Shown here: positions 8,478-27,437 of the stretch, piece after piece
Numbering within the stretch: position 1 is the stretch's first letter
How the letters are laid out: each line of letters begins with the position of its first letter
DNA from: Methanosarcina acetivorans C2A
Lineage (GTDB): Archaea; Halobacteriota; Methanosarcinia; Methanosarcinales; Methanosarcinaceae
Reading direction: 5' to 3'
Assembly: GCF_000007345.1 (NCBI RefSeq)
Contig: NC_003552.1
Location: 5,394,001-5,458,000, forward strand
Length of the DNA stretch: 64,000 nucleotides
Program-made: the position numbers and the translations under genes
Notes under the pieces: model-generated
The model's input: only the letters and a program-made list of their open reading frames with translations
What the model was told of the DNA's origin: nothing
Database searches by the model: none

Positions 8478-9497
8478 ATGAGCGAATTCACACTCAAAAC
8501 AAGACTTTTAGCCGCCGTGAAAGGCGAACCTGTTGACAAAGTACCTGTTTGTTCCGTGACCCAGACCGGAATTGTAGAACTTATGGACGAAGTCGGCGCT
8601 CCCTGGCCTGAAGCCCACACCAACCCTGAACTGATGGCAAAGCTGGCGCTCGCCAACTACGAGCTCAGCGGACTTGAAGCAGTAAGGGTCCCCTACTGCC
8701 TTACTGTCCTTGTCGAAGCCATGGGCTGTGAGATCAACATGGGTACCAAGAACAGGCAGCCCTCAGTTACCGGTCACCCCTTCCCCAAAGCCCTTGATGG
8801 TGCAGCCGTGCCTGCAGACCTCCTGCAGAAAGGAAGAATTCCGGCAGTACTCGAAGCAATCAAGATCATCAGGGAAAAAGTAGGCCCTGACGTGCCAATC
8901 ATCGGCGGGATGGAAGGTCCTATCACAGTCGCATCCGACCTTGTAAGTGTAAAATCCTTCATGAAATGGTCCATTAAAAAACCTGATCTCTTCGAACAGT
9001 CTCTTGACCTCGCAACCGCAGCTTCAATTGCGTATGCAAACGCCATGGTAGAAGCCGGTGCAGACATTATTGCTATTGCAGACCCTGTAGCATCCCCTGA
9101 CCTTATGAGCCCTGATTCCTTCAAGCAGTACCTCCAGCCCAGACTACAGAAATTCTCCTCCAGCGTTAGCAGCGTAACTGTTCTTCACGTCTGCGGAAAC
9201 GTAAACCCAATCCTCAGCTACATGGCAGACTGCGGTTTTGAAGGTCTCAGCGTTGAAGAAAAGATCGGCAGCGTAAAGAAGGCAAAGGAAGTCATCGGAA
9301 CCAGAGCAAGGTTAATAGGAAACATTTCCAGTCCCTTCACCCTGCTACCCGGACCTGTTGACAAGATCAAAGCCGAATCCAAGCAGGCTCTTGCAGACGG
9401 TGTAGATGTACTCGCCCCGGGCTGTGGTATTGCACCCATGACCCCTCTCGAGAACATCAAAGCCATGGTCGAAGCAAGAAACGAATTCTACGCCTGA
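8478..9497 (+). CDS. mtaA1: Methylcobamide:CoM methyltransferase MtaA (methanol-specific MT2)
   Basis: 339-residue zinc enzyme of the uroporphyrinogen-decarboxylase fold. It transfers the methyl group from the methylated corrinoid protein MtaC to coenzyme M. Zinc ligands are visible as HVCG (His237, Cys239) and GCGIAP (Cys316), which match the family numbering only if translation starts at MSEFTLK (8478). That ATG also has AAAGGT nine bases upstream, so I prefer it to the ATG at 8469. Start MSEFTLKTRLLAAVKGEP is typical of MtaA rather than MtbA. From memory this is M. acetivorans mtaA1 (MA4379). It is followed by the RamA-like gene but unlinked to mtaCB. Confidence 0.9.
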   Translation: MSEFTLKTRLLAAVKGEPVDKVPVCSVTQTGIVELMDEVGAPWPEAHTNPELMAKLALANYELSGLEAVRVPYCLTVLVEAMGCEINMGTKNRQPSVTGHPFPKALDGAAVPADLLQKGRIPAVLEAIKIIREKVGPDVPIIGGMEGPITVASDLVSVKSFMKWSIKKPDLFEQSLDLATAASIAYANAMVEAGADIIAIADPVASPDLMSPDSFKQYLQPRLQKFSSSVSSVTVLHVCGNVNPILSYMADCGFEGLSVEEKIGSVKKAKEVIGTRARLIGNISSPFTLLPGPVDKIKAESKQALADGVDVLAPGCGIAPMTPLENIKAMVEARNEFYA

Positions 9498-9821: not shown

Positions 9822-11441
9822 ATGAGAACAGGAGTTGCAATTGACCTGGGCACAAGCGGATTCAGGGCCCAGAAAATTGACCTGGAAAGCGGCGAGATTA
9901 AGAAAACCGTGATAACTCTCCGGAACCCTCTGCCGGGAGCAAATGTAATGGACCACCTTGACTTCGCAATCCACTACGGACTTGACAAAGCTCATGGACT
10001 CTCAGCAACAGCGGTCAAAAATATCCTTACGGAACTCGGAGTAGAGCCCGAAGAGATGGAGAAGTTCTCAATTTGCGGAAACCCTATCCAGCTTTCTATC
10101 TTCCAGGGAATTCCTATCGAAGACCTGGCATACGCAGGCGAGCGTAAGAAGCAGAAGTATCACATTGAAGAACAGAACAGAGATTCCAGGGTAGTCCCTC
10201 TTGCTGAAATTGTGGGATTTGAAGATTTTAAGAACTGCAAATTGTTTGTGCCTCCTGCCATTAAACACGAGGTCGGAGCCGACGCACTTGCCCTTATAGT
10301 TAAGGCAGGCATGGTTGAGAGCGATGAAGTCGCAATCGCTACGGACTACGGGACAAACGCCGAAATGGCCCTGAAATCAAACGGGATTATTTACACCGGA
10401 TCGGCTGCTGCCGGACCTGCTCTCGAAGGACAGGAAATCGAATACGGATCCATTGCCTCCCCGCACACAATCTGTGACGTCGAATTTGAAGGAGAGAACC
10501 TGCGCTGTTATGTGCTCGACAGAGACATGAAAACAACCATGGGAGACCTTGTAAACCCTAAGACCGGAGAGGTTGTGGAAAAGGGAGAGGTCACTGCAAA
10601 AGGCATCACAGGGACAGGAGTTATTGCCCTAATCGAAGCCGGGATGAGGAACAAACTGATAGTTCTTCCGAAAATTCAGACCCCTGAAAAAATTATTTAC
10701 CTCCAGAACGGGATAAAGTTCACCGAAAAAGACCTTATCGCTGCCGGAAGAGCCATAGGAGCCCTCCGGGCAGGGCACATTACGCTCTGTGCAGCTGCTG
10801 GCATTGAAATGGAAGACCTCAAGGTAGCCCATATGTCAGGAGCTGCCGGGACCTACATGGATGCTGCAAAAGCCCACCAGGTAGGAATGATCCCGTACAA
10901 TGCTAATTATGTCTCCCAGATCGGAAACACCTCCCTGACCGTTGCCAGGGAAATCCTGCTTTCCGAAGACAGGCTCTGGGAACTGCAGGCAATTGCAAAG
11001 GAAATCGTGGGAACGCATGTGATGTTTGCAACCTCCGAAGCCTTTAAGGAAGCTTATCTGCTGGAACTTGCCTACTGGAACGAGGGTATGGCATTCAAGA
11101 TGCTCCAGAAGTTCCTGAAAAAGAAAAAACTCCCGATGATCAGCGAACCTTCAACTATCCTGAAAATCGACCGCCAGGTCGAAAGGGATATTCCGGAACT
11201 TGGAGAAGAAGGACTTGAAGTGCTCGAAAAAGTCGGGACCTACCTTACCATGGTCATTGAGGATTGCCAGGGCTGCAAGAAATGTGTAAAGGTATGTCCT
11301 AACGGAGCTCTTAGAACGGAGGACAGCGGGCTTGTGAAAATAAGGACCGACCTCTGTGACGGAGCAAATTGCCAGCGCTGCCTGCATGCCTGCCCTGACG
11401 ACAGATTCAAATGGGAAAACCTGACCGTTGCAGGACTCTGA
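9822..11441 (+). CDS. RamA-like reductive activator of corrinoid methyltransferases
   Basis: 539-residue ASKHA-type ATPase with a C-terminal ferredoxin domain. The N-terminus (VAIDLGTSGFRAQKIDL) is the phosphate-1 loop of the fold; the DUF4445-type core follows (ATDYGTNAEMAL near 170, GAAGTYMDAAKA near 345). Residues about 485-530 hold two [4Fe-4S] sites: CQGCKKCVKVCP and CDGANCQRCLHACP. M. barkeri RamA reduces inactive Co(II) corrinoid to Co(I) in an ATP-dependent step for methylamine methyltransferases. Position next to mtaA1 suggests the methanol-side counterpart (I recall the name ramM for the M. acetivorans gene, unverified). Start has gaggaggt upstream. Confidence 0.88.
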   Translation: MRTGVAIDLGTSGFRAQKIDLESGEIKKTVITLRNPLPGANVMDHLDFAIHYGLDKAHGLSATAVKNILTELGVEPEEMEKFSICGNPIQLSIFQGIPIEDLAYAGERKKQKYHIEEQNRDSRVVPLAEIVGFEDFKNCKLFVPPAIKHEVGADALALIVKAGMVESDEVAIATDYGTNAEMALKSNGIIYTGSAAAGPALEGQEIEYGSIASPHTICDVEFEGENLRCYVLDRDMKTTMGDLVNPKTGEVVEKGEVTAKGITGTGVIALIEAGMRNKLIVLPKIQTPEKIIYLQNGIKFTEKDLIAAGRAIGALRAGHITLCAAAGIEMEDLKVAHMSGAAGTYMDAAKAHQVGMIPYNANYVSQIGNTSLTVAREILLSEDRLWELQAIAKEIVGTHVMFATSEAFKEAYLLELAYWNEGMAFKMLQKFLKKKKLPMISEPSTILKIDRQVERDIPELGEEGLEVLEKVGTYLTMVIEDCQGCKKCVKVCPNGALRTEDSGLVKIRTDLCDGANCQRCLHACPDDRFKWENLTVAGL

Positions 11442-12277
11442 TAGAAAATAAAAACAATTAATAAACGAAAAAAAGAGGAAAGCCCGTGAACTGAAGTTTG
11501 TGGACTTTCTGCTTCACATTTCAGAGTGCAGTTCTTAAGAATTAGAGTGCAGTTCTTAAGAAAGATTCCTCTTTCAAAGTATCCGGCTCCAATCAAGTCT
11601 GATCCTGAGTAAATTTCGGATAGTATTGCGGATATTGTATTTGCGCCACGTATTACAGTTTTGATTTTCGCTAGTTTTAATTTTTCAGTTCTGTTTTCTA
11701 TTTCTGCTCTTTTGAGTTCATGCTTGGATATCGATACACTTACAGCCCTGATATTTTTCTTTTTCAGTGCTTACTAACATACTGCAATGTGATCCAGCTT
11801 ACTGCATTTTGACAATAATTAAGAATCCAAGCATCTGTATCACAGAAATATTTGGGCATATACCAATAAATTTTTTATTAATACCAAAATTAGAAAGAAA
11901 TACACGAATGAAAGAATGAAATGGTAGACAGAAAGAGAAGAGAAAAAAATTAGAGAATAGAGAAAAGATATAAATCATACAGAGTAGCACCCAGATACAT
12001 CAGGAGTTGATTTTGACATAAAGAACTGCATAATACAAAAAATCCAGAATAGTTGCAATAATTTTGCCTTATACCAAAAAAGTATTAGGGATATTAATAA
12101 AAAAGATAATTAAGCCGTTAAAAAATATTTTTATACATACCAAATTAGAGATAAAGAAATATACTATGAAGATAGAGAAGTAAAAGTTTAAATTTCCCAT
12201 AAAAAATTGCGGAGATTTAGGTTTCTCATAAAGATAAAAAACAGCAAGTAAAAAATGGAAGAAAAAGAGGACAAAAA
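11442..12277. other. Long A+T-rich leader region before the first cobW
   Basis: 836 bp. Near the left end is a two-copy 21-bp tandem repeat (11523-11562). From about 11780 the sequence is very A+T-rich. The segment 12120-12240 resembles 14250-14340 before the second cobW copy (shared pieces such as gagata-aga-aatatact and agatagagaag/gaatagaaaag), as expected if gene and leader were duplicated together. No gene is seen. Confidence 0.5.
11523..11562. repeat. Two-copy 21-bp tandem repeat
   Basis: agagtgcagttcttaagaa occurs at 11523 and again at 11544. Each copy contains the palindrome cttaag. It lies just downstream of the RamA-like gene. Confidence 0.8.
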
Positions 12278-13747
12278 ATGGACGTAATTGTTGTTGGTGG
12301 TTTCCTGGGAAGCGGGAAGACCACAACTGTCATTAATATGGGTAAATACCTGGCAGAAAAAGGAAAAAAAATTGCCATCATTGTGAATGAGATAGGAGAA
12401 ATAGGGATTGATGGGGATATAATTAAGAAATTCGGATTTGATACCAAAGAGATCACAAGCGGATGTATATGCTGTACCCTGAAAATGGGGTTGAGAACAA
12501 CAGTCGATACTCTCATGAAAGAGTATAAGCCCGATATCCTGATGATCGAACCTACAGGTATTGCTTTTCCAAACTCCATTAAAAACGAATTCAAGCTAAT
12601 GAACCTAGGTGAAGAAGTTAAAGTTGCTCCCCTGGTAACTCTGATCGACGGCAGCCGCTTCAAACACCTGATGAAAGAAATAAAGGATTTCGCCATGAGG
12701 CAAATCATAGACGCTGAGATTCTGGGCATAAACAAGGTGGATCTTATAGACTCACTTCAGATCCCCATTCTTGAAGTTTCAGTCCAGCAACTTAACCCAA
12801 CAGCCAAGGTAGTCTTACTTTCAGGAAAAGACACCGGAGAAAAGTTTGAAAACTTCATACAACTGGTTCTTCCAGGAGTAAAGGATATTCCAAATAAAAC
12901 CAAAAAGACAGAGGAAGAGACCGAACCCACACAACAGGATTTTGAAAACTCAAACGACACCTGTGGAGTTGATGGTTCTGAAGAGAACTCCTCAAATGTT
13001 CCATATAATCATGGCGATTCTTTCAAGCATACCGTTGGCAGTTATTCTGTAGAGTATTCCTTAAAAGGCGGCAGAGACCTTAGCGAGGAAACTGCAAGAA
13101 TCATTACAACTGAAATAATGAATAAAATAAAAGAAAAGGCCCTTAAACTTAATCCGGAATTTTTGGGGCATATTAAGCTCTTCCTCGATAACGGATCAGA
13201 AACAGTGAAACAGAGCATTACAATATATAACGAAGAGCCGCAAGAAGATCTTTTCAAATCGAATGATGGAGCTACCCCGACATTTAAAGTTCTTTCTGCG
13301 GTTTCAAAAGTCGAAAAAGAAGTTCTTAAAAATGCAGTAAGCAGTTCAGTGCAAGAAACATTTGAAAAAATGGGAATAGAGATTCAGCAGATCAAACACA
13401 GCCATGATCATGAACATCACCATGGACACGATCATCACCAAGGACACGATCATCACCAAGGACATGATGAGGAAGATGAAGACTGTCATCATGGACAGAA
13501 ACATCACCGTGAGCAGCATCACCACGCCGATGAGGAAGAATATCATGAAGAAGAAAATGACCACGAAGAACACGAGCACTACGGGAATGATCATCACCAT
13601 AAACACGACCATATAAGGAAGCATGGTTATGGAGAACAAGAACATGAGCATGATGTAGTTCATGATTGTTGCTGCCACGAATGTGATCACCATAAGCATT
13701 ATGTACACGAAAATTATGAGCCTCAAAAGCCTCATAAATTAAAATAA
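12278..13747 (+). CDS. CobW/COG0523 GTPase with long His-rich tail
   Basis: 489-residue G3E-family P-loop GTPase. Walker A is GGFLGSGKTTT (about 7-17), the metal-binding motif is SGCICCTL (about 62-69), the Asp/Glu motif is MIEPTGIA, and the base-recognition motif NKVD is near 150. A CobW C-terminal domain follows (about 260-360). The last 120 residues are His/Asp/Glu-rich (HDHHQGHDHHQGHD and similar), a likely Zn2+, Ni2+ or Co2+ store. COG0523 proteins act as metallochaperones, for example ZNG1 for zinc. The gene lies between mtaA1-ramA and mtsF, so methyltransferase metallation is a reasonable but unproved role. Paralogue of the next gene. Confidence 0.85.
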   Translation: MDVIVVGGFLGSGKTTTVINMGKYLAEKGKKIAIIVNEIGEIGIDGDIIKKFGFDTKEITSGCICCTLKMGLRTTVDTLMKEYKPDILMIEPTGIAFPNSIKNEFKLMNLGEEVKVAPLVTLIDGSRFKHLMKEIKDFAMRQIIDAEILGINKVDLIDSLQIPILEVSVQQLNPTAKVVLLSGKDTGEKFENFIQLVLPGVKDIPNKTKKTEEETEPTQQDFENSNDTCGVDGSEENSSNVPYNHGDSFKHTVGSYSVEYSLKGGRDLSEETARIITTEIMNKIKEKALKLNPEFLGHIKLFLDNGSETVKQSITIYNEEPQEDLFKSNDGATPTFKVLSAVSKVEKEVLKNAVSSSVQETFEKMGIEIQQIKHSHDHEHHHGHDHHQGHDHHQGHDEEDEDCHHGQKHHREQHHHADEEEYHEEENDHEEHEHYGNDHHHKHDHIRKHGYGEQEHEHDVVHDCCCHECDHHKHYVHENYEPQKPHKLK

Positions 13748-14422
13748 AAAGATCTGGCTGAGGGATAATTCTCGACGCCACCGTTTCAGAAAAACAATGC
13801 CTTGCTTCAGAGTCTTTGCCTGATTTCAAAAAATAATTCCATGAGGGATTACAACTTAACTACTGGTATGCTTACCAGTCATGTGAAACCCGATGTATTT
13901 AAGATTTAACCTCCAAAAACACAGGTGGTTTCCGCATTAAGGCTTTCTCCAGACCCTTGACGTGGAACCACCATATATCCTTAACCACCATATATCTCTA
14001 ATATGAGTGTTTGTAATATGCCTAGATTCTTTGATGTTTTGTGCTTTTCTGTACTAACATAGTCACACCAAATAGCTGCTTGTAATAAGCCTGGATTCTT
14101 TGATGTTTTGTGCTTTTCTGTACTAACATAGTCATACCAAATAGCTGCACCCATTATGCTTGCAACTGCAGGCTCTTTTTAACGTTATTTTTGAGCGTCC
14201 GCAGAGTTCAATCCGAATCTATGACGTCTTAACATGGATATCACCTTTTTTCATCTGCAAGCACTTTTTTATAAGGAGGGATATAGAGATAGAAAAATAT
14301 ACTTTGAGAATAGAAAAGTTGACACTTATATTTCTGAATTAAAAGCAGGATTTTACACTACATATTATGAACATCAAAAAAATGACGATAGTAATAAAGT
14401 AGCAGAAAACGGAGGAAAGAAA
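13748..14422. other. Spacer between the two tandem cobW genes
   Basis: 675 bp containing the 69-bp tandem duplication listed separately, a short repeat caccatatat at about 13970-13996, and a leader resembling that of the first cobW. An in-frame extension of the second cobW back to 14234 exists but has no family similarity and no ribosome binding site. Confidence 0.55.
14011..14148. repeat. 69-bp tandem duplication
   Basis: Two adjacent, nearly identical 69-bp units begin ttgtaata at 14011 and 14080, sharing gattctttgatgttttgtgc and ctgtactaacatagtca. They differ at only a few positions, so the duplication is recent. Position is upstream of the second cobW. Confidence 0.85.
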
Positions 14423-15589
14423 GTGGACGTCATTGTTGTTGGAGGTTTCCTGGGAAGCGGGAAGACAACCACCATTATCAATATGGGTAAGTACCTGGCA
14501 GAAAAAGGAAAAAAAGTTGCCATTATTGTAAATGAGATAGGCGAAGTAGGGATTGACGGGGACGTGATCAATAGGTTCGGGTTCGATACCAAGGAGATTA
14601 CAAGCGGATGCATCTGCTGTACCCTGAAAGTCGGGCTGAGGACAACAATGGACCTTCTGACAAAAGAATACAAGCCCGATATCGTGATGATCGAACCCAC
14701 AGGAATTGCGTTCCCGAACGTTATCAGGACTGAAGTCGAACTTATGAATCTTGGAGAAGAGGTAAAAGTTGCCCCCCTTGTGACCCTGATCGACGGCAGC
14801 CGCTTCAAGAATCTGATGAAAGAGGTAAAAGAATTTGCCATGAGGCAGATTATTGATGCCGAAATTCTGGGGATAAACAAGGTGGACCTGATAGAACCTA
14901 TCCGGATCCCGATCATTGAGGCTTCGGTGCAGCAGCTGAACCCCAAAGCCAAGGTGGTTTTGCTTTCAGGAAAGGATACGGGAGAAAGGTTTGAGAATTT
15001 CATGCAGCTTGTTCTTCCTGAGATCAAAGAAAATCAGGAAAAAACTCAGGTAACCACCCAGAAAGAAAAACCCGTACCTTCTGAAGTTCAGGAAACCGAG
15101 GATTCCATCAAAGCTTCCGGGGTTGGCAGCTATGCTGCAGAGTTTGAAATTAAGGATGGAGGCAGCCTGAGCACGGAAGCCGCCAGGAACCTTACTGCGG
15201 AATTAATGAACACAATAAAAGAAAAAGTTCTGAAGCTGAACCCCGAATTTGTAGGACATATCAAACTCTTCCTGGACAACGGGCTGGAAACCGTAAAACA
15301 GAGTGTTACTATCTATTACGAAGAACCCCAGGAAGAGATAATTAAATCAAAAGAAGGTGCTACCCCGACATTCAAAATCCTCTCCGCTGTTTCAAACGTT
15401 GAGAAGGAAGCTCTGAAAGATTCTGTGAACAGTTCGGTACACGAAACCTTTGAGAAAAAGGGAATGGATGTACATAAAGTCGAAAATGGACATGGTCACG
15501 GACATGAGCATCACGGACATGAGCATCACGAACATGAACAGCATGAACATGTACAGAGAATCACGGGAATTAAAAGCAGAAAAGAGTAA
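14423..15589 (+). CDS. CobW/COG0523 GTPase, short His-rich tail
   Basis: 388-residue paralogue of the upstream GTPase, nearly identical in its first 210 residues: GGFLGSGKTTT, SGCICCTL, MIEPTGIAFP, INKVDL. I start it at GTG 14423 because GGAGG lies seven bases upstream and because this gives VDVIVVGG, aligning with MDVIVVGG of the paralogue. The tail is short (about 20 residues of HGHEHHGHEHHEHEQHEH type) compared with about 120 in the first copy. Expected to bind GTP and a divalent metal and to pass the metal to a client. The client is unknown; a zinc or cobalt methyltransferase component is the contextual guess. Confidence 0.85.
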   Translation: MDVIVVGGFLGSGKTTTIINMGKYLAEKGKKVAIIVNEIGEVGIDGDVINRFGFDTKEITSGCICCTLKVGLRTTMDLLTKEYKPDIVMIEPTGIAFPNVIRTEVELMNLGEEVKVAPLVTLIDGSRFKNLMKEVKEFAMRQIIDAEILGINKVDLIEPIRIPIIEASVQQLNPKAKVVLLSGKDTGERFENFMQLVLPEIKENQEKTQVTTQKEKPVPSEVQETEDSIKASGVGSYAAEFEIKDGGSLSTEAARNLTAELMNTIKEKVLKLNPEFVGHIKLFLDNGLETVKQSVTIYYEEPQEEIIKSKEGATPTFKILSAVSNVEKEALKDSVNSSVHETFEKKGMDVHKVENGHGHGHEHHGHEHHEHEQHEHVQRITGIKSRKE

Positions 15590-15793
15590 GGTAAAAAGAA
15601 TAAGAGAGAAAAAGTAAGAGGGGAAGAAAAATCTCGTAGGGTTAAAAATTTCCCCGCATCTTCTTTATCGAATATTTTATTCCTTAATTTTTTCTTTAAT
15701 TTCTGCATGGCTGCCGAAACCAGAAAATTTCAGTCATAATCCGGATTCCAACAACAGTCTGGGAAATACCAAGAGCTGATGACGTTACGTTTT

Positions 15794-16567
15794 TTAGATG
15801 ATTTTCTCCGAGCGGTCAATGTAATACTGGGCAAGTTCCCTGCCCCATTCCAGAGCACTCGGGGTGAAACTCATGATTTTTCTGTGGTCAAACTCCCCAT
15901 CTTTTCCAAAGAGCTTCAATAACATGAAGTTGTCCGAAACCATGAAGGAAGAAGGCCTTACCTTACCGGAGTAAATGTAAAGAGAAACCCCGTTTTTCAA
16001 GCAGGTATTATATTCGTCTTCAAAGTCGTTTTTCATCCTGTTATAGACCTTTTCATCAAGGATAAGATGTACATCAGCCCCGTTTTCTGCACAATCGGCC
16101 TGAATTGCGGGGCAATCGGGGCAGAAATAAGAATAAAAGGACGTAAGGTTTTTAGAGCTGTAAAGCCTTTCCCGCAATTGCTTTGGGAATTCAAAGAGAT
16201 GGTCCAGATCAGGTTCTTCCAGAGTACATTTCCCAAGCATGTCTATCTTCTGTATCAGGTGCCTCGGAATCGGGGATCTGTCATGTTTTGACCAGTAGTC
16301 TTTATTTCCATCAAAAACATTCAGAAGAGAAGTAAGCGGGAGCATCTTTTCAACGATAACCTCTCCGATATCCGAGAGTTCGTAGGCACTTCCTTTCTGC
16401 ACGATTATATCCATATCCTTCAGTTTTTTTATCTGTGGCATCACCGCACATGCCTTTACATTAAGAGTATCCTTGATCTCATCAATATACATCGGCCCAT
16501 TAGCTAACTGAATAAGGAGATTCTTTCTTTTTTCAGAGAAGAAAATCAAGTCTATAAGGGAACTCAT
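15794..16567 (-). CDS. msrC: Msr-type regulator divergent from mtsF
   Basis: 257-residue Msr family regulator: winged helix (about 1-75, MSSLIDLIFFSEKRK start) plus DUF1724/FilR1 domain ending MSFTPSALEWGRELAQYYID. The open frame extends eight codons further to 16591, but starting at 16567 aligns with the sister regulators. It is divergent from mtsF with a 1.1-kb gap. In M. acetivorans the regulator upstream of mtsF is MsrC, reported as an activator of mtsF with cross-effects on another mts gene; I identify it by position and family. It may sense substrate or sulfide state, but no ligand site can be read from sequence. Confidence 0.82.
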   Translation of the reverse strand: MSSLIDLIFFSEKRKNLLIQLANGPMYIDEIKDTLNVKACAVMPQIKKLKDMDIIVQKGSAYELSDIGEVIVEKMLPLTSLLNVFDGNKDYWSKHDRSPIPRHLIQKIDMLGKCTLEEPDLDHLFEFPKQLRERLYSSKNLTSFYSYFCPDCPAIQADCAENGADVHLILDEKVYNRMKNDFEDEYNTCLKNGVSLYIYSGKVRPSSFMVSDNFMLLKLFGKDGEFDHRKIMSFTPSALEWGRELAQYYIDRSEKII

Positions 16568-17709
16568 GTTTATCAGCTTCCAACCATGCATCTGTTATGT
16601 TAAGACGAACTACCGTTTTCCGGAGTTTTACCCAAAAACCCGCCTCGTCCTCCGGGAAGGATAGCTTTAACATTTAGCCAAGAGCATTAATGGATAAATC
16701 CAGTATTTTGCCAGGATTCACTATACGACCTGGAAATTAAGGGTTTTGAAACCAGCTCTTGTGATAGTACCTCTACATTAAAGAATGGTTCTTGACACAT
16801 CCTTAACATGAAATAGGATCTAAAAGTGAAAAACTTCTTTAGATCAAAACCATATCAATTATATTACAAGTATTATATTTAAATTTTGATTCTGATCGGT
16901 ATAATAAAAACGAGAGATATTATATTTAAATTATCATAATAAGCAAGAAATCAAAAGATATAAAACGAAAGTCAGAGATATTTTACGGTTTTCGTATACT
17001 GAGAGACAAAATGCCTGTTTTGACACTGACTAATATAAAATTCAATGGATTCAAAAGGATGGATCAGCGGGCTGATAGATGATCAATGGACAGAGAGACG
17101 ACCGTAACTTTTCAACCCGCGATTCTCCGAACAATACCCTCAAATTTTCAATGCCCTCTATTTTTTACATCCACCCTCAAAAATTAGCAGGTACTATTTT
17201 CCCAGAGATATGGGGTTTTCCAACCCCCGAATAAAAACTTCATGCTTGCAAAAAGGCCGAGAACGCAAAAGCTAAAGAAACAACAAATTTCCCCCTGGTT
17301 CTAAAATTAGAAGTCTAGTAAAAATCCATTCCACGCAAAATATAAAGAAAACTATATTTTTCCGGGAGGGAAAAAAATGCCCCTGAATCAAAAAACACTG
17401 TCGGTTAAGCTATATACCATAGAGTCAATCTGTCATTAGTGACCATTTAAACCTGAAAGAAAGAAAAACCTGTACTGGATTCAGGGAAAAATCCCAGTTT
17501 GTACCGCGGCTGAAGATGCTGATTTCCGGGAAAAAAATCAATTTTCAGGAAAAATGGTCATTTTGTGGATTAAGGAGTATTATTAGTGGATTTAGAGAAT
17601 TGACGGGCTGTGGAACCCGTTAAAGACCTAAGCAAAAACAGATAGAGATCTGGAGAAAACAGGCAAAAAACTGGTTGTCCGGATTCTAATAAAAAAAGGA
17701 GATTTTTTA
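16568..17709. other. Long msrC-mtsF divergent control region
   Basis: 1142 bp without a credible gene. It contains several TATA-like blocks and a direct repeat tattatatttaaatt at 16871-16885 and 16918-16932. A strong ribosome binding site (aaaggagat) precedes mtsF. Long untranslated leaders are known for Methanosarcina methyltransferase transcripts, so much of 17000-17709 may be mtsF 5' UTR. Confidence 0.5.
16871..16932. promoter_or_regulatory. Direct repeat tattatatttaaatt, 47-bp spacing
   Basis: Two perfect 15-bp copies lie in the divergent msrC-mtsF region. Each contains a TATA-like core, so they may be two promoter elements, or a repeated regulator site. There is no direct evidence for either. 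Confidence 0.35.
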
Positions 17710-19605
17710 ATGGCAAAAGAAGATATTCTGAATACTTTAGCTGATGCTGTCGTTGATGGTGACGACGAACTTGCAGAAGAATTCGCACAAAAAGCCCTTG
17801 ACGAGGAACTCGACGCTTACGAAGCAATCGTTGATGGCCTTGCAAGAGGCATGAAGATCATCAGTGATATGTACGAAAGAGGAGAGGCCTTTGTCCCCAG
17901 CCTTCTGCTCGCAGCAGACGCTATGTATGCCGGGATGGACATCCTCACACCCTACATGAAAGTGGACGGAACTGCAGCCCCCAAGAATGTCATTATCGGT
18001 ACTGTCGAGGGTGACGTGCATGACATCGGAAAGAACCTCGTTAAGACCATGATGACCGCAGCCGGCTTCAACATGATCGACCTTGGCTGTGACGTACCCC
18101 TTGACAAGTTTGCAGAAACTGCAAAGGAAAAGAAAGCTGCAGCCATCTCCATGAGCACACTTATGACCACAACAATGGGCGGCATGGAGACTGTTATTGA
18201 ACAGCTCCAGGAAGAAGGAATCAGAGATTCCCTCATTGTAATGGTCGGTGGTGCACCTATTTCTCAGACTTTCGCAGACAGTGTCGGCGCAGACGGCACG
18301 GCCCTCGATGCAAGCGCAGCAGTCGAGACTCTTACCTCCCTTGTAAGCGAGCTGCCTTCAGACTCCTGGAGCGACTCTGCAATTGCAGCAAGCAAGATGA
18401 AGTATAAGGAAGTTCTCGCACAGAAAAGCGGCAAGGAAAAGGTAGACATCGGCAGAATAACTGCAGAGAAAATAATAGCAGAATTCGACTCCGTGGTCCC
18501 GAAGTTCAATGAAACCATGACCAAGGCAGAAAGGTTTGGTGCTGCCTTCCAGGACAAGAAGGTCGACAGACTCCCTGTAGCACCTCTCGCCTGCGGTGTA
18601 TCCAGAAAGTTCGTGCCCTGCTCTTATGTTGACTACTCTACAAAGGCAGAGAAGTATGCGGATTGTGTCGAAGCAGGCATCAAATACTTCAATATGGATA
18701 CCTTCGTTGGCCTGACCGACCTCTGTGTTGATGCAGCTGACTTCGGTGCAACCATCAGATACCCTGAAGAGGACACACCCGCCGCAACCGGCCACCTTGA
18801 AGACTACGAGAAACTTGAAGTCCCCGAACTTAAGGAAGGTACTCGTGCCTACAACCTGATCCAGGGCAACAAACTTGCAACCGAGAAAGCACATGCTCTC
18901 GACGCACCCATGACGGCCCTGATCGAAGGCCCGATGGTCGCTCTGACCCAGATAATGGGAGCAACCCGTGTCCTTTCCGATCTCAGGACAAACCCTGATG
19001 TTGTACTCAAGGCTCTTGACAAGACTACAGTCTATGTAGAAGAAATCATGAAGGGCATGTTCGAAGAGGCCCAGCCTGACAACCTCTGTATGGTTAACCT
19101 CTGGACAAACAACGTCATCCTCAGCGCTGACGAATACATGAAGTCCGAGGGTCAGGTCATGCAGAACAGGATTGCTCCTCTGTATAAGAAATACAATAAG
19201 CCTGTTGTTATCCACAACTGTGCCGACGCCCCACACTGGGAGCTCATAAACAAATGGAACACCGAGTACTACAGCTATACCTTCTACCCTGATGAGGCCG
19301 GGAAAGGATCCAAGGATCACAAGTACCTGATCAACAACTATGGCAAAGAAACCATGTTCGGTGGAGAAGTCAGTCCGATTGTCTTCCTGGACAACAGCCC
19401 AGAAGGCCTCCAGAAAATGAAGGCAGACACAATTGCCCTTCAGGAGAGCGTCCTGAACACTCTCAAGGAGAACGGTATGCAGTCCAAATACATGATTTCA
19501 ACAGGCTGTGAAGTCCCACCAGGAGCACCCTGTGACTCCATTACTGCCCAGACCTACACCGTGGCAGAAAAGGGTCCGGAGCTCTACAAAAAGATAATCG
19601 GGTAA
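17710..19605 (+). CDS. mtsF: Fused corrinoid protein/methyltransferase for methyl sulfides, MtsF
   Basis: 631-residue fusion. Residues 1-215 are a MtaC-like corrinoid module with cobalt-ligating His104 in DVHDIGKN. Residues about 265-631 are a MtaA/MtbA-like methyltransferase with zinc ligands His502 and Cys504 (IHNCAD) and Cys600 (STGCEV). The protein can therefore carry methyl groups on its own cobamide and pass them to coenzyme M, the reaction proposed for dimethyl sulfide and methanethiol metabolism (also discussed for CO-dependent methyl sulfide formation). Size and layout match the MtsD/F/H family. It is monocistronic, regulated by divergent msrC, and followed by two hairpins. Confidence 0.9.
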   Translation: MAKEDILNTLADAVVDGDDELAEEFAQKALDEELDAYEAIVDGLARGMKIISDMYERGEAFVPSLLLAADAMYAGMDILTPYMKVDGTAAPKNVIIGTVEGDVHDIGKNLVKTMMTAAGFNMIDLGCDVPLDKFAETAKEKKAAAISMSTLMTTTMGGMETVIEQLQEEGIRDSLIVMVGGAPISQTFADSVGADGTALDASAAVETLTSLVSELPSDSWSDSAIAASKMKYKEVLAQKSGKEKVDIGRITAEKIIAEFDSVVPKFNETMTKAERFGAAFQDKKVDRLPVAPLACGVSRKFVPCSYVDYSTKAEKYADCVEAGIKYFNMDTFVGLTDLCVDAADFGATIRYPEEDTPAATGHLEDYEKLEVPELKEGTRAYNLIQGNKLATEKAHALDAPMTALIEGPMVALTQIMGATRVLSDLRTNPDVVLKALDKTTVYVEEIMKGMFEEAQPDNLCMVNLWTNNVILSADEYMKSEGQVMQNRIAPLYKKYNKPVVIHNCADAPHWELINKWNTEYYSYTFYPDEAGKGSKDHKYLINNYGKETMFGGEVSPIVFLDNSPEGLQKMKADTIALQESVLNTLKENGMQSKYMISTGCEVPPGAPCDSITAQTYTVAEKGPELYKKIIG

Positions 19606-19905
19606 ACCTTCTGAAGCCATTAAATACGAAAGAAGCAAGCCAGGCTTGCCAGATGCTGGATGGGCTTCCGGCCCATCCTCCCCTTATTTATCAAAATAAA
19701 AAACCGGGTTCTCGCTGTTTCTGCACCCACTGTCTCAAAAAAATGCAAGCGAACTAAAAACGAGAAAAAAAGGCACTGGGAAAGAAAAACAGAGAAAAAA
19801 CGGAAATAAAAAACGAATACACACATTTGGGCCGAAAAACGCAAAAACTTCCGCAGAGGATGGCAGAGAACCTTTTCAAATATTCTGATGAAGAGGTGAA
19901 ACTGG
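19606..19905. other. mtsF 3' region
   Basis: 300 bp. It carries the two strong hairpins listed separately and an A-rich stretch. No gene is seen. Confidence 0.5.
19635..19678 (+). terminator. Two consecutive hairpins after mtsF
   Basis: Hairpin 1, gcaagcc/ggcttgc (19635-19649), is followed by hairpin 2, ggatgggc/gcccatcc (19658-19678, loop ttccg), then a pyrimidine run ctccccttattta. They lie about 30 nt after the mtsF stop codon and probably terminate or protect the mtsF mRNA. Confidence 0.55.
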
Positions 19906-20277
19906 ATGAGATATCGGAAATTACCCGAGCATGAGGAAAAAATGTTCTATTCGAGTCCTGTGCACCCTGCAACCTATAAACTGAGAATGAACCATTCGTC
20001 TCAGAGATTCCTCTTCCACTATTCGGTTATTAAAACGGGTACTGTGGGCTACGAATCGGGCTTAACCCCAGAATCTATAGAATATACAGAGATATGCATG
20101 GATTCCAGATCTTACGACCTTGTTGCCGAAAAATATACAGATGTGAGCACAGATTCCAGAGTTTACTATCAGGTTTCCGAACTAGACTTCACAATGGAAG
20201 AACCTGATACATACCTTGAATGCGCAGGCAGACTCTCCGAATCATCGGATACTCAGCAGTCAGTTAAGAAAAAGTAA
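19906..20277 (+). CDS. Hypothetical protein, 123 residues
   Basis: An open frame with a plausible ribosome binding site (gaagaggtg, just before the ATG) and ordinary codon use. The protein is soluble, with a basic N-terminus, an acidic Tyr/Ser/Glu-rich second half containing repeated MDSRSYDL/STDSRVYY-like pieces, and a lysine end. I recognise no family. It ends just before the A/C-rich repeat array. It could be a lineage-specific gene or a chance frame. Confidence 0.45.
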   Translation: MRYRKLPEHEEKMFYSSPVHPATYKLRMNHSSQRFLFHYSVIKTGTVGYESGLTPESIEYTEICMDSRSYDLVAEKYTDVSTDSRVYYQVSELDFTMEEPDTYLECAGRLSESSDTQQSVKKK

Positions 20278-20305
20278 TTCGGCAGCAAGAATTTCCATAT
20301 GAAAT

Positions 20306-20772
20306 AAAAAACGACAAAAACGGCAAAACATCAAAAACAACAAAAACGGCAAAACATCAAAAACAACAAAAACGGCAAAACATCAAAAACAACAAAAACG
20401 GTAAAACATCAAAAACGACAAAAACTGCACCCACCAAAAACAACAAAAACGGTAAAACATCAAAAACAACAAAACCTCCAAACTGCACCCATCAAAAACA
20501 ACAAAACCTCCAAACTGCACCCACCAAAAACAACAAAAACGGTAAAACATCAAAAACAACAAAACCTCCAAACTGCACCCATCAAAAACAACAAAAACGG
20601 CAAAACATCAAAAACAACAAAACCTCCAAACTGCACCCACCAAAAACAACAAAAACGGTAAAACATCAAAACAACAAAACCTCCAAACTGCACCCACCAA
20701 AAACAACAAAAACGGCAAAACATCAAAAACGGTACCCACCAAGATCCAACAAAAACAGCAAAACATCAAAAA
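20306..20772. repeat. A/C-rich array of two interleaved repeat units before the chaperonin gene
   Basis: About 470 bp built from two units. Alpha is about 26 bp (core aaaacgg-aaaacatc ending aaaaacaac). Beta is about 32 bp (core aaaacctccaaactgcaccc, also ending aaaaacaac). The order runs from mostly alpha at the left to alternating alpha/beta at the right. The plus strand has very few T and G, so a transcript would be nearly unstructured. It ends about 25 bp before the chaperonin start codon. Confidence 0.85.
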
Positions 20773-20798
20773 AGAACCGCAGCGGCTGAGGAGAGTAC

Positions 20799-22406
20799 AT
20801 GGCAAGCGAACTGAAAACACCGGGCAACACGAGCCCTGAAAGCCAGGACGGAATGGCAAAACTGGCGCGGACGATAAGGGATAAGATCCTGATTGACGAG
20901 CCGGTAAAGGAAGAAGAGCTGATCGACCAGCTTGAAAGGGCAGCGATAGAAATTGACGAACTTCTTGGCTCATCCCTCGGCCCGAAAGGGATGAATAAGA
21001 TAATAGTAAATCCGGTGGGAGATATTTTCGTTACAAGCGACGGGAAAGTCATCTTAAAGGAAATAGATGTACTTCACCCGATCGTGACCTCCCTCAAAAA
21101 GCTCGCGGAATCTATGGACAAAGCCTGCGGGGACGGTACAAAAACGGCAGTCATTTTTGCAAGCAACCTGATTAAAAACGCGGTCAGGCTTATCAGGGCA
21201 GGGGTACACCCGACAATTATTATTGAAGGGTACGAACTTGCCATGCAAAAAACGTATGAGATGCTGCAGTACAGCATAAGGCAGGCCTCAGAAGAGGACA
21301 TCCGCACAACCATAATGTGCTCGGCAACAGGAAAGGGGATTGAAAGGCAGCAGGCACAGGCCGTTACGGAGATTGCCCTGAAAGTTATAAGTCACCTTTC
21401 CGAAAAACAGGCAGGAAGAATCGACCTTAACAGAAACGTTAAGATCCTGAAAAAGAAAGGCGGGCCAGAAATTGTTGCAATTGAAGGTCTGATCATGGAC
21501 GAAAACCCGGCAAGAGAGGATATGCCAAAAAGCTACCAGAACCCGGCGGTCCTGATTACAAATTACGACCTCAAGATAAAAAGCGGATACTTAAACCCCC
21601 AGCACAACTTCAAAATGGATTCCGTGCAGACTGCACTCCTTTTTGAGGAGAGGAAAAAGCAGCTCTGCGGGGAAATTGCCCGGAAGATTATTGATTCGGG
21701 AGCAAATGTCCTCTTTTCCGAAGGAGATATTGACCCCTATATCGAAACTCTGCTCAGGGACAGTAATATTCTGGCTTTCAAGAAGCTAAAGATGAAAGAC
21801 CTGGAAAAGCTTGCAGAGGCTACAGGTACGACCCTGATGGCACAGCCGGACGAGATTCGCCCCTGCGACCTCGGAAGAGCAGGCAGTATAAAACTTGAAA
21901 AGAAAAACGGGGAAAACTTCGTTTTCATTACCGTGAAAGACAAAGCTATCGCCACTATCCTGATCCGGGAGCCTGTGAAATACGGGCTTGACAAAGTGGA
22001 AGAAGCTGTTGATGATGCCCTGAACAATGCGGCGTTCCTCCGGAAAAACAGGGAAATCGTAAACGGAGGAGGAGCAATTGAGTTTGAGCTTGCGCATATG
22101 GTCAGGCTCTTTGCGGCGACGCAGACAGGGAAAAGACAGCTGGCAGTCCAGGCATATGCCGAGGCCCTCGAAAAAATTCCTGTGATACTTGCCAGAAATA
22201 TAGGAATGAATGAAATAGATGCAATGGCGCAGATGAGGAATTCGTATGCAAGAGGACTGGAGGCAAGGATAGACCTATCAAGAAAGGTAACGGACAGGGG
22301 ACCTGAAGTCTACGACTCGGCAACGGTAAAGAAACTCGCAATTATTGCGGGTACGGAAACGGCAAAAAAAGTACTCAGGATAGACGAGATAGTGCCTAAG
22401 AAGTAA
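20799..22406 (+). CDS. Divergent group II chaperonin (Hsp60-4 type)
   Basis: 535-residue CCT/thermosome-family protein clearly unlike the canonical subunit at 55038. Recognisable motifs are GPKGMNKI, a degenerate TSDGKVIL in place of [16 protein letters not shown] in place of GDGTTTAA, and NGGGAIEFELAH in place of [11 protein letters not shown]. The C-terminal Gly/Met tail is missing and an N-terminal extension of about 20 residues is present. ATP-site Asp residues appear kept. M. acetivorans is known to carry divergent extra chaperonins beside the standard subunits, and this position matches one (Hsp60-4, by memory). It may form mixed rings or have a special client. The start has gaggag upstream. 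Confidence 0.85.
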   Translation: MASELKTPGNTSPESQDGMAKLARTIRDKILIDEPVKEEELIDQLERAAIEIDELLGSSLGPKGMNKIIVNPVGDIFVTSDGKVILKEIDVLHPIVTSLKKLAESMDKACGDGTKTAVIFASNLIKNAVRLIRAGVHPTIIIEGYELAMQKTYEMLQYSIRQASEEDIRTTIMCSATGKGIERQQAQAVTEIALKVISHLSEKQAGRIDLNRNVKILKKKGGPEIVAIEGLIMDENPAREDMPKSYQNPAVLITNYDLKIKSGYLNPQHNFKMDSVQTALLFEERKKQLCGEIARKIIDSGANVLFSEGDIDPYIETLLRDSNILAFKKLKMKDLEKLAEATGTTLMAQPDEIRPCDLGRAGSIKLEKKNGENFVFITVKDKAIATILIREPVKYGLDKVEEAVDDALNNAAFLRKNREIVNGGGAIEFELAHMVRLFAATQTGKRQLAVQAYAEALEKIPVILARNIGMNEIDAMAQMRNSYARGLEARIDLSRKVTDRGPEVYDSATVKKLAIIAGTETAKKVLRIDEIVPKK

Positions 22407-22470
22407 AACAGGCATGGAAGCATAAATCCGGAAAAGGGAGCCGGTAAAATTCAAAAATATCACGCTGATG

Positions 22471-22500
22471 ACAATGCCACTCCCTCTCCAAGGGCATTGT
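22471..22500 (+). terminator. Hairpin after the divergent chaperonin gene
   Basis: acaatgcc/ggcattgt, an 8-bp perfect stem with a 14-nt loop. Pairing can be extended by atg/cat outside, with a small bulge. It lies 65 nt after the stop codon. Confidence 0.4.
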
Positions 22501-22541
22501 TGTCATATACACCAAAAAGAAGTTAGACCTGCAATACTCTT

Positions 22542-22586
22542 TTCCGGAAAGGCACAGATTTGCCATTTCAAAATGCCTTTCCGGAA
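22542..22586. repeat. 13-bp inverted repeat
   Basis: ttccggaaaggca (22542) and tgcctttccggaa (22574) pair perfectly around a 19-nt loop. It could be a second terminator or a regulatory stem. Each arm contains the small palindrome ttccggaa, which recurs often in this genome. Confidence 0.5.
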
Positions 22587-23073
22587 GGGTGTCTGAACCA
22601 GGAAAAAACTCTGAATAGGCGATATACTCCGGTTTTGCCATTTTCCGGGAGATTACTGCCTAGAAGCCGGAAAAACGACTTGATACTCAAAACCTGAATC
22701 ACCTCTCAAAAAGAGTATCAAAGGAAAAAATTCAAAGAAAAAAATCAGGAGAAAGGCCCTTTTCAAACCCTTTTGCCATTTAGGGTTTAAAGGAAAGAAT
22801 GTGAAACCTGAAGCATAGGACAGGTAGCCCCATCTACTGCTAACCCCAGGCAGGAAAGGGGTAATATTCCTGCCCTTATGATGTATGAGGCAGGCTATTA
22901 GCACAATAATTTAACACTATAATAATACTGCTGACAGACAGCGATATTCCGGTAATAATGTCCGGTTCTTACCTGATATTTGATTTAACCTTACGTGACG
23001 TTCAATCCTACCGGTATTCAATTATTATCGATATTAAATTTTTACCTGAAGGCATGAAAAAGAGGGCAGAGCC

Positions 23074-24177
23074 ATGAAATGCATGATAATCGGAGGCTTC
23101 CTCGGAAGTGGAAAAACGACAACAATAAGAAAACTTGTCGAGTACCTTGGAGCCCGGGGGCAGCGAACGGCAATCATTGTCAATGAGATAGGAGAAATAG
23201 GAATCGACGGGGATATTATCTCGGGAGGGGAAGTGGAAACCCGAGAAATTACAAGCGGATGCATTTGCTGTACCCTGAGAATCAGTATGGAGCAGACCCT
23301 GAGAAACCTTATGCTCACCTATAGTCCGGATACTATTATAATAGAGCCCACAGGGATAGCCTTCCCAAGACAGATAAAAAGCAATATCGAAAGCATGGAT
23401 CTTCCGGAGATTAGTATTACTCCGATCGTAAATCTTGTAGACCCCTCCCGCCTGAGCCCGAACGTAGAAGACCTGCAGAATTTTGTTCGAAATCAGATAG
23501 AAGATGCCGAGATCCTGGGCATAAACAAAGTAGACCTCATAGGGCAGGAAAAACTTCTGGAGACCTGTCTGCTCCTCCGAAAATTAAACCCGAGAGCAAG
23601 GATTGTTCATTTCTCAGCCAGGCAGGGAGGAGAAGGTCTTGACAAATTTTTCGGGCTGATAGGGGTAAGCAACAAGGATAAAACTGCCTCCGAAGTGAGA
23701 AATTCAGTAAAAGCAAAGAACCCAATTGAAGAAAGAAACTCCGTTGAAATGTCCGGGGTTTCGGCTTACTCAACCGAGTTTGAGATTACTTCGCAGGAAA
23801 TACCTCTTGAAACGGCGGTCTCTGTTTCGGGGCAAATTCTGGACAGCATAAGAACTAGAATGACACAACTGAACCCTGAATTTACAGGACATATTAAAGT
23901 TTCCTTTGCACACAAAGAGAATTTTGTAAAGGGAAGCGTGACTTCAGCACATGAAAAACCCGAAATTGAAATCCTCAAAAAAGAAAAGAATCCCAGCTCA
24001 AGGCTAAAGATACTCTCTGCGGTGACATCCGTGCCCAGAGAAGAACTTATCAGAACCGTGGACACAACGGCAAGTGGGCAACTGGAAGACAGGAAGCTCT
24101 CATATAGAAAGGTGGAAAAAAGCAATCACGGTTACAGTCAGGTTCCGATTAGCATCCTTAAACAGAAGAACTTCTGA
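23074..24177 (+). CDS. CobW/COG0523 GTPase without His-rich tail
   Basis: 367-residue third member of the set: GGFLGSGKTTT (about 6-16), SGCICCTL (about 62-69), IIEPTGIAFP, INKVDL. It is more distant from the other two, which resemble each other closely, and its C-terminus is basic, with no His tract. It lies upstream of mtaCB in the same direction, but a 1.1-kb leader separates them, so it is probably a separate transcript. Likely role: GTP-driven metal insertion or delivery, with the metal unknown. Confidence 0.85.
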   Translation: MKCMIIGGFLGSGKTTTIRKLVEYLGARGQRTAIIVNEIGEIGIDGDIISGGEVETREITSGCICCTLRISMEQTLRNLMLTYSPDTIIIEPTGIAFPRQIKSNIESMDLPEISITPIVNLVDPSRLSPNVEDLQNFVRNQIEDAEILGINKVDLIGQEKLLETCLLLRKLNPRARIVHFSARQGGEGLDKFFGLIGVSNKDKTASEVRNSVKAKNPIEERNSVEMSGVSAYSTEFEITSQEIPLETAVSVSGQILDSIRTRMTQLNPEFTGHIKVSFAHKENFVKGSVTSAHEKPEIEILKKEKNPSSRLKILSAVTSVPREELIRTVDTTASGQLEDRKLSYRKVEKSNHGYSQVPISILKQKNF

Positions 24178-25260: not shown

Positions 25261-26037
25261 ATGTTGGATTTGACACTGGAAGACATCGATGGCATATTAG
25301 TACGCTATAACGTCGCCCTCGAAAAGGAAATGACCCCTGACGAAGCGGCAGAAGAGCTTTACCCGAAGGACGAACTCATCTACCCAATTGCAAAAGCAAT
25401 CTACGAGGGAGAAGAAGACGACGTTGTTGACGCCCTCAAAGCCGCAATCGATGCAGGCAAGAAGCCAATCGACCTTATAAACGATGCCCTTATGATAGGC
25501 ATGGGTGTTGTATCCCAGCTCTACGACGAAGGTATCATTTTCCTCCCCAATGTGATGATGTCTGCAGACGCAATGCTGAACGGTATTGAATATTGCAAGT
25601 CCCAGACCACCGAAGTGCCCGCGCCAAAGGGCAAGGTCGTCTGCCATGTTGCAGAAGGTGACGTCCATGACATCGGAAAGAATATTGTTGCTGCCCTCCT
25701 GAGAGCTGCCGGTTATGACGTAACTGACCTTGGCAGAGATGTCCCTGTTGACGAAGTCATTGAAATCGTTGAGAAAGAAAAGCCAATGATGCTGACAGGT
25801 ACTGCTCTCATGACAACCACCATGTACGCATTCAAGGAAATCAACGACAAGCTCCTTGAAAAGGGAATAAAACTGCCCTTTGCATGTGGTGGCGGTGCTG
25901 TGAACCAGGACTTCGTTGCTCAGTATGACCTCGGAGTTTATGGTGAAGAAGCTTCAGACGCTGTGAAGATTGCTGATGCAATCATTGCAAGCGGAGACGA
26001 CATCGAGAAATTAAGAGAGGAATTCCACAAGCACTAA
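25261..26037 (+). CDS. mtaC: Methanol corrinoid protein MtaC
   Basis: 258-residue corrinoid protein that accepts the methyl group of methanol on Co(I) cobamide. It has an N-terminal helical cap (about 1-120) and a Rossmann B12 domain with EGDVHDIGKN. The axial His falls at residue 136, exactly as in M. barkeri MtaC. GTALMTTTMYAF and CGGGAVNQDF are further B12-loop motifs. It is the first gene of mtaC-mtaB, with 14 bp between stop and next start and its own strong ribosome binding site. By context with mtsF and cdhA3 this is the isozyme called mtaC2 in M. acetivorans (from memory). Confidence 0.95.
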   Translation: MLDLTLEDIDGILVRYNVALEKEMTPDEAAEELYPKDELIYPIAKAIYEGEEDDVVDALKAAIDAGKKPIDLINDALMIGMGVVSQLYDEGIIFLPNVMMSADAMLNGIEYCKSQTTEVPAPKGKVVCHVAEGDVHDIGKNIVAALLRAAGYDVTDLGRDVPVDEVIEIVEKEKPMMLTGTALMTTTMYAFKEINDKLLEKGIKLPFACGGGAVNQDFVAQYDLGVYGEEASDAVKIADAIIASGDDIEKLREEFHKH

Positions 26038-26051
26038 TCGGAGGGAGCAAA

Positions 26052-27437
26052 ATGGTAAAGAAATACACTTCAATGGCTTACGCTAAAGCAGATGACATGC
26101 TCTTTGGGAACTCAAAATACCCAGTAAAGGCAGGGCTTGGCCTCGAGATCGGTGCTGGATACACAACTCCTGAACTGAACTATGCTCCGAGACCTCAGGC
26201 AGGCAAGTCCAAAGACAAACTCGTAAAAGAATACGAAAGGATTACCACCGACGCAATGGCAAGAATGGTCCAGATCGGTGCACCCTCCATCGTACTCGAA
26301 ACCGAACACGTCGAACAGATGTCCAACAACCCCGACTGGGGAGGCGCTGTTGCACACGCCCAGAAGACCATCATGGAAGAATACCACGATGAATACGGCA
26401 TAAAGTGCGCCCTCCGCCACACCATCGGTGACATCCGTGAAGACCGTGACTACCTCCAGCTCAGAGGAGACAAGTACAGCACCTTTATGGAAGCCTTTGA
26501 GCAGTGCGCCCAGAACGGTGCAGACCTGCTTTCTGTTGAGTCAATGGGTGGTAAGGAAGTATTCGACTACTCCATCCTCAGGAACGACACTGCAGGCATC
26601 CTCTTCGGTATCGGTGTGCTCGGCAGTATGGACATGGAAATGGTCTGGTCCGACATTGCCGACATCGCAAAGAAGAACGGCGTAGTTGCAGCCGGTGACA
26701 CCGACTGTGCCCAGGCAAACACTGCAATGTTCATCGCAGGCGGTCTCCTTGACAAGAACCTTGCCCACACCATCGCAATCGTTGCAAGGGCAATCTCTGC
26801 AGGAAGGTCCCTCTGTGCATATGAAGCAGGTGCAACCGGCCCCGGAAAGGACTGCGGATACGAAAACACCATCATAAAATCCATCGCTGGTGTGCCAATC
26901 GCTCAGGAAGGTAAGACATCAACCTGCGCCCACTCTGACCTGATGGGTAACCTGACTATGCAGTGCTGTGACCTCTGGTCCAACGAGTCCGTTGAATACC
27001 ACGGTGAATTCGGCGGTACAACCGTTCAGTGCTGGTCCGAGACCCTTGCATACGACTGTGCAATGATGAACACTTCTCTTAAACTCGGAAAGGCAAAAGA
27101 TCTCAGAGACATCCTCACCCTCTCTGACAAGTACAGAGACCCACAGGGATATGTCCTAGCCTATGACAACGCCTACAAAGTTGGAGAGGCAATTGCAAAG
27201 AACGGAGACAACAACTACCTCCGTACAAAGGCAGCTGCAATCGAGTGCTGTAACATTGTAGAAGAAGGCATCAACTCCGGCAAGCTCAAACTTACAAGGT
27301 TCGAAACCAATGCTCTTGCAAAGGTTAAAGCTGACCTTGAAGCCCTTACCGATGATGCTGACAAGTTCATGAGTGACAACCTGACCAAATTCAAACAGGA
27401 AGTTGCAGTTTTCAAGACAGAAAACTACGGGCTCTAA
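26052..27437 (+). CDS. mtaB: Methanol:corrinoid methyltransferase MtaB
   Basis: 461-residue zinc methyltransferase that activates methanol and methylates MtaC. Zinc ligands line up as Glu163 (LLSVESMGG), Cys219 (GDTDCAQAN) and Cys268 (GPGKDCGYEN), one less than the M. barkeri numbering, with the same total length. Full length and no frameshift. It starts after GGAGGGAGC. Codon use is strongly biased (many ATC, AAC, CTC), typical of highly expressed methanogenesis genes. Downstream T-tracts may end most transcripts before the transporter gene. Confidence 0.95.
   Translation: MVKKYTSMAYAKADDMLFGNSKYPVKAGLGLEIGAGYTTPELNYAPRPQAGKSKDKLVKEYERITTDAMARMVQIGAPSIVLETEHVEQMSNNPDWGGAVAHAQKTIMEEYHDEYGIKCALRHTIGDIREDRDYLQLRGDKYSTFMEAFEQCAQNGADLLSVESMGGKEVFDYSILRNDTAGILFGIGVLGSMDMEMVWSDIADIAKKNGVVAAGDTDCAQANTAMFIAGGLLDKNLAHTIAIVARAISAGRSLCAYEAGATGPGKDCGYENTIIKSIAGVPIAQEGKTSTCAHSDLMGNLTMQCCDLWSNESVEYHGEFGGTTVQCWSETLAYDCAMMNTSLKLGKAKDLRDILTLSDKYRDPQGYVLAYDNAYKVGEAIAKNGDNNYLRTKAAAIECCNIVEEGINSGKLKLTRFETNALAKVKADLEALTDDADKFMSDNLTKFKQEVAVFKTENYGL

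Follow-up and report, generated by a model that had tools for sequence, protein, structure and literature searches.

COG0523 GTPases of Methanosarcina acetivorans: probable zinc delivery to methyltransferases, module by module

Introduction

Why does Methanosarcina acetivorans C2A keep three GTPases of one family among its methyltransferase genes? Methylotrophic methanogenesis relies on abundant zinc and cobalt enzymes. The three genes, here CobW_1, CobW_2 and CobW_3, lie in a 64,000-nucleotide stretch of the genome (contig NC_003552.1, positions 5,394,001 to 5,458,000, forward strand), which is a single contig of 5,751,492 bases. We refer to the whole stretch as the window and use its numbering. 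A preliminary description of the window proposed a dedicated metallation system for methyltransferases, with metal storage graded by His-rich tails. We find that the proteins are COG0523 (G3E) GTPases. They are probably metallochaperones, each supplying Zn(II) to those zinc-dependent methyltransferases that share its module, rather than parts of one graded storage system.

Main-text passages of Haas et al. (2009, PMC2770081) place most archaeal COG0523 proteins in “subfamily 13”, co-localised with the corrinoid-dependent methyltransferase genes mtaA, mtaB, mtaC and ramM. Hence, the association of COG0523 with methyltransferases is a rediscovery. The same passages describe a candidate ZntR site that MA4381 has in common with znuABC, predict zinc (ZntR) control, and report detection of MA4382 in the proteome of methanol-grown cells. 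These are the genes studied here; by gene order, MA4381 is CobW_1 and MA4382 is CobW_2. Both traits of subfamily 13 recur in the window, co-localisation as gene order and the ZntR-type site as a predicted box. In those passages the three copies are not assigned to modules, and neither the linkage to mts and a chaperonin nor the truncation of CobW_3 is mentioned. We searched the literature for the MA numbers and for a connection between the chaperonin and mts and came upon no earlier report, which is not proof of absence.

Results

Three COG0523 GTPases with intact motifs and different tails

CobW_1 (12278–13747), CobW_2 (14423–15589) and CobW_3 (23074–24177) are all on the forward strand. Each protein matches Pfam cobW (PF02492) with 130–137 bits (E 1e-37 or better). 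As first described, all keep the GTPase and metal motifs (GFLGSGKT, CICC and NKVD), including the Walker A (GxxGxGKT) and NKxD signatures of COG0523 and CobW-like G3E GTPases. The P-loop and the three Cys residues of CxCC were invariant in an alignment of 50 sequences. Pfam CobW_C had no match in the three window proteins. The predicted structure of CobW_2 (mean predicted local distance difference test score, pLDDT, 83.8) best matched YjiA, a COG0523 protein, over both domains; the matched entries included a Zn-bound form. Foldseek aligned both domains over 359 columns, with a different domain orientation (root-mean-square deviation 21.6). A contig scan for relatives of CobW_3 turned up only those related to Methanosarcina.

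Comparison with known systems places the proteins near the zinc COG0523 metallochaperones (YciC, ZigA, ZNG1 and others). Like these, they have the G3E GTPase domain, CxCC and His-rich stretches, and one member lies behind a zinc-type repressor site. Unlike these, they fall far below the ZigA equivalog cut-off (NF038288, 77.8–86.7 bits against 600), the presumed regulator is DtxR-like rather than Zur, and their clients would be methyltransferases. CobW of cobalamin biosynthesis shares the superfamily and the GTPase domain, but the window genes are linked to methyltransferase genes, one has a zinc-type box, and their scores lie below the TIGR02475 cut-off (84.4–88.3 bits against 332.1). The other G3E GTPases MeaB/MMAA and HypB/UreG share the GTPase-domain fold and a chaperone role for metallo- or B12-enzymes. 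However, the window proteins carry CxCC, the CobW_2 model has a second domain that aligns with that of YjiA, and Pfam MeaB gave CobW_2 a sub-threshold 19.2 bits (gathering score 23.1) and did not match the other two.

The tails differ sharply, with 39, 14 and 4 His in the last 130 residues of CobW_1, CobW_2 and CobW_3, respectively. The His-rich tail of CobW_1 spans approximately 13400–13744, and CobW_3 is without one. CobW_3 is also the more distant copy, 39–40% identical to the others. The tandem copies had been called nearly identical; they share 70% of aligned residues (272/388) and 72–78% of their DNA. The longest open reading frame of CobW_2 starts at 14234 and encodes 451 residues. Its 63-residue N-terminal extension (14234–14422) is absent from both paralogues, and a GGAGG-like ribosome site lies directly upstream of a GTG at 14423. 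Hence, this GTG is probably the true start, yielding 388 residues, and the longer annotated start is likely wrong.

The mta-side copy usually lies behind ramA

We assign the three genes to different units: CobW_1 and CobW_2 lie on the mtaA–ramA side, CobW_3 on the mts side. Upstream of CobW_1, on the forward strand, are mtaA1 (8469–9497) and a ramA-type gene for a corrinoid reductive activase (9822–11441; TIGR04270, 791 bits, cut-off 500). The former encodes a methylcobamide:coenzyme M methyltransferase with an HxC...C motif (NCBIfam MtaA, 518 bits, cut-off 400), a presumed zinc client, and corresponds to MA4379 (PMC6703419). Beyond CobW_3, also on the forward strand, mtaC2–mtaB2 (25261–27437) encode a methanol corrinoid protein and methyltransferase (NCBIfam MtaC 452 bits, MtaB 828 bits). 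The preliminary description had placed mtaA1, the MtsF-type gene and mtaC/mtaB correctly, but omitted the ramA-type activase, an MsrC-type regulator and a group II chaperonin.

We surveyed 186 genomes of the order, counting overlap from lists of COG0523 and MtaB matches. Of these, 101 have a close COG0523 relative and 96 have MtaB; both occur in 95, COG0523 only in six, MtaB only in one and neither in 84. Nearly all positives fall in one family, so this co-occurrence is phylogenetically confounded. One Methanosarcina genome (G024, 99% complete) has neither. All 15 COG0523-negative genomes that we tested have the corrinoid protein MtrA; this speaks against COG0523 serving cobalt or corrinoid supply in general.

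In the mta-side group, ramA lies on the same strand and at most two genes away in 51 of 66 cases. The ramA–cobW gap is 10–42 bp in most other genera and hence resembles an operon. The remaining 15 are mainly stand-alone copies; a hydantoinase-like gene replacing ramA (one genus), a tandem partner and a contig edge account for others. The conserved mta copy is the CobW_2 type, which in most cases follows ramA directly. Synteny across genera and co-occurrence with mtaB support a dedicated tie of COG0523 GTPases to corrinoid methyltransferases; its extension to one graded system is not supported.

A hydantoinase/oxoprolinase-type protein is encoded after mts in many genera (L049:13347, L105:10113, L201:11548 and others). 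In one genus such a protein takes the place of ramA beside cobW and mtaCB, and may be an alternative corrinoid reactivator.

CobW_3 belongs to the mts module

Between CobW_2 and CobW_3 lie an MsrC-type regulator gene on the reverse strand (MA4383, 15794–16591; Pfam FilR1_middle; PMC11619418) and, on the forward strand, mtsF (MA4384, 17710–19605) and a group II chaperonin paralogue (20799–22406; Pfam Cpn60_TCP1). MtsF is a fused corrinoid/methyltransferase protein (Pfam B12-binding and URO-D) with HxC...C, and is the presumed client of CobW_3.

Every full-length CobW_3-type gene found (at least 54% identity) has an mts gene in its locus or lies in a genome that is mts-positive. In six species without an Mts match (G002, G003, G004, G014, G028 and G030), CobW_3 is shortened to 222–242 residues. 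CxCC is gone in five of the six, remnants of the C-terminal domain lie downstream, and the adjacent CobW_2 is intact. No mts or hsp60 remnants were found in the mts-lacking loci, where MtsF matches were to the corrinoid domain of mtaC. Consistent with a split between mta-side and mts-side copies, MA4384 (mtsF) to MA4394 respond to HdrED depletion as one block, with MA4381 and MA4382 outside it (PMC11619418). CobW_3 is a member of the mts module.

The chaperonin paralogue (E <= 1e-110) is similarly tied to mts, occurring in 47 of 53 Mts-positive genomes and none of 133 Mts-negative ones. Near 43 mts genes, at loci chosen in part because of cobW, we found the chaperonin paralogue 37 times, an MsrC-type regulator 40 times and a hydantoinase-like gene 24 times. 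The strict co-occurrence of the paralogue with Mts across genomes raises the question of a folding machine dedicated to one enzyme family. The paralogue of the mts operon (also L049, L117, L137 and L201–L217) is about 50% identical between genera and about 31% identical to thermosome subunits. In G006 and G009 a frameshift or stop splits the chaperonin gene at the mtsF locus (L055:6712–7628, L057:5617–6524), and an intact second copy lies elsewhere.

CobW_1 shares a zinc-type box with znuA

Footprinting of aligned znuA promoters from several Methanosarcina genomes identified the box TTTGG-N7-CCAAA; znuA itself adjoins a DtxR-type regulator gene. We built a matrix from the znuA sites alone and afterwards applied it to cobW upstream regions. 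In the 64 kb window it had only two matches of at least 12 bits, both before CobW_1, with no strand assigned: TATTTGGGCATATACCAATAA at 11849–11869 (16.1 bits, about -419) and AATTTTGCCTTATACCAAAAA at 12060–12080 (15.5 bits, about -208). An exact search of the whole genome for TTTGG-N5-7-CCAAA recovered two znuA sites and missed those of CobW_1, which have one mismatch each. A direct k-mer comparison of the regions upstream of znuA and of CobW_1 was uninformative.

The box precedes five of five Methanosarcina CobW_1 orthologues, at about -419 and/or about -208, and the matrix found none before any CobW_2 or CobW_3 orthologue. It is also present before stand-alone His-rich copies of another genus and two genes of a further genus. 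Overall, the box was present before 11 of 116 cobW genes and 4 of 987 control genes; two of these four controls share an intergenic region with a cobW gene. On the tree, the CobW_1 set of Methanosarcina and the His-rich set of the other genus form separate supported groups, and box state changes at least four times. Hence, the boxed state was gained more than once or repeatedly lost.

Copies with at least 20 His were associated with the box (raw Fisher odds ratio 32, p = 2.7e-6, related sequences being treated as independent). In a check of His-tail richness, by the same definition, against methyltransferase neighbours, there was no association (Fisher p = 0.57). Since His-rich copies show no enrichment next to methyltransferase genes, the idea of graded storage for these enzymes is unsupported, and the three genes lie in different units. 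The observations of the preliminary description are real, with corrections, and its interpretation is supported in part. A role for the His tail in zinc starvation is plausible.

L110, L113, L116, L130 and L163 hold stand-alone His-rich COG0523 genes, singly or in pairs, in the vicinity of genes for a CbiX chelatase and a DUF169 protein; most are boxed.

Discussion

In the mechanism that we favour, CobW_2 would be the old partner of the mtaA–ramA–mtaCB (methanol) genes and the housekeeping methanol copy. CobW_1 would be its tandem duplicate, controlled together with znuABC by a DtxR-type zinc repressor (ZntR, MA0022) presumed to bind the shared box. Once the repressor is released, the His-rich tail may hold or pass on scarce zinc, making CobW_1 the zinc-limitation version of the delivery GTPase. 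CobW_3 would serve MtsF-type enzymes as the methylsulfide (mts) module's own copy. Within each module Zn(II) would be transferred to HxC...C methyltransferases, namely MtaA on the mta side and MtsF, MtsD and MtsH on the mts side; MtaB is a further putative client. In MtaA-type enzymes the HxC...C motif, which MtaA, MtsF, MtsD and MtsH have in common, binds zinc. As the metal supplied, we favour zinc over cobalt.

If so, one strain holds constitutive, zinc-controlled and mts-specific copies of the GTPase. With the copies divided by module, a clean test by genetics becomes possible in this tractable archaeon, and each copy has a predicted client. We would suggest, far more tentatively, that every methyl-substrate module of Methanosarcinaceae has its own maturation kit. 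This might comprise a zinc GTPase and a reactivator of the corrinoid, either RamA or a hydantoinase-like ATPase, with a group II chaperonin added in the methyl-sulfide module; zinc-starvation GTPases bearing His tails may also have joined the ZntR regulon more than once.

Several observations weigh against zinc delivery by module. CobW_2-type genes directly adjoin ramA, which encodes an Fe–S protein, not a zinc enzyme. One genome (G017, 92% complete) has mtaB and no COG0523 match. Most mts loci of several other genera, fetched regardless of cobW, have no cobW nearby. All six shortened CobW_3 genes end at the same place, so their truncation looks like a single event common to the six species. 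Moreover, the median ratio of non-synonymous to synonymous substitution (dN/dS) is about 0.22 for truncated CobW_3, against 0.15 for intact CobW_3 and 0.09 for CobW_2. This is not neutral; a value far from 1 indicates constraint that is relaxed, not gone. Since the ratio, though raised, is so low, we weakened our description of the shortened gene from pseudogene to truncated copy losing its metal site. Finally, the correlation of tail and box rests on related sequences, and phylogeny-controlled pairs include too few informative ones to have power. Eight of 16 His-rich copies are without the box, and three boxed copies are His-poor.

The main rival explanation holds that the CobW proteins would be GTPase partners of RamA, and of hydantoinase-like ATPases, in corrinoid reactivation. 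They would load or reset corrinoid proteins, and the metal site would be regulatory. MeaB/MMAA, a G3E GTPase, gates cofactor loading of methylmalonyl-CoA mutase, and MeaB and MMAA are both among the structure matches of the CobW_2 model. The constancy of ramA as the direct neighbour, often in an apparent operon, also fits, as does the hydantoinase-type protein in its place in one genus. We nevertheless think this explanation unlikely: the Cys residues of CxCC are invariant, one copy has a zinc-type box and a His tail, the MeaB score is below threshold, and MtrA-bearing genomes exist without COG0523.

Alternatively, general zinc-homeostasis GTPases could have come to lie beside methyltransferase genes by chance, with no specific function there. 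A fourth COG0523 type amid unrelated genes in Methanosarcina is in line with this, as are the His-rich boxed copies that stand alone in another genus. Yet the mta-linked type holds the same place in many genera, and absence of mts goes with truncation of CobW_3 but not of CobW_2; we consider chance linkage quite improbable. We judge as poorer still the prospect that the proteins would be cobalt chaperones, supplying Co(II) for the corrinoids of MtaC, MtsF and others in the manner of true CobW in late cobalt insertion. True CobW is a Co(II) chaperone (PMC10206600), and the name, the corrinoid-protein neighbourhood and the nearby CbiX chelatase gene of His-rich copies in one genus all suit a cobalt role. 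Against it stand the low TIGR02475 scores, MtrA in every COG0523-negative genome tested, and the identity of the shared box as that of znuA. The CbiX genes inspected are also convergent with the cobW genes, not co-oriented.

Other COG0523 genes

The M. acetivorans genome has three further close COG0523 copies outside the trio. One stands beside an MtsF-like gene, by its position mtsD, that is accompanied by a 97%-identical chaperonin; another adjoins a second MtsF-like gene, by its position mtsH, and the last is distant from methyltransferases. The fourth COG0523 type (L048:9628; orthologues in L060, L062, L064, L066 and L100) has no methyltransferase neighbour in Methanosarcina. Its conserved neighbourhood includes larB/larC-like genes, a semialdehyde-dehydrogenase-type gene and a radical SAM gene. 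A related copy adjoins a lone mtaA-like gene in two other genera (L101, L121). Short, GTPase-only COG0523-like proteins of about 195–215 residues are encoded at L205:15360, L217:14678 and L211:11082 and in L218–L220. In one genus, the gene for such a protein lies directly behind a row of mts, hydantoinase, chaperonin and mtaA genes.

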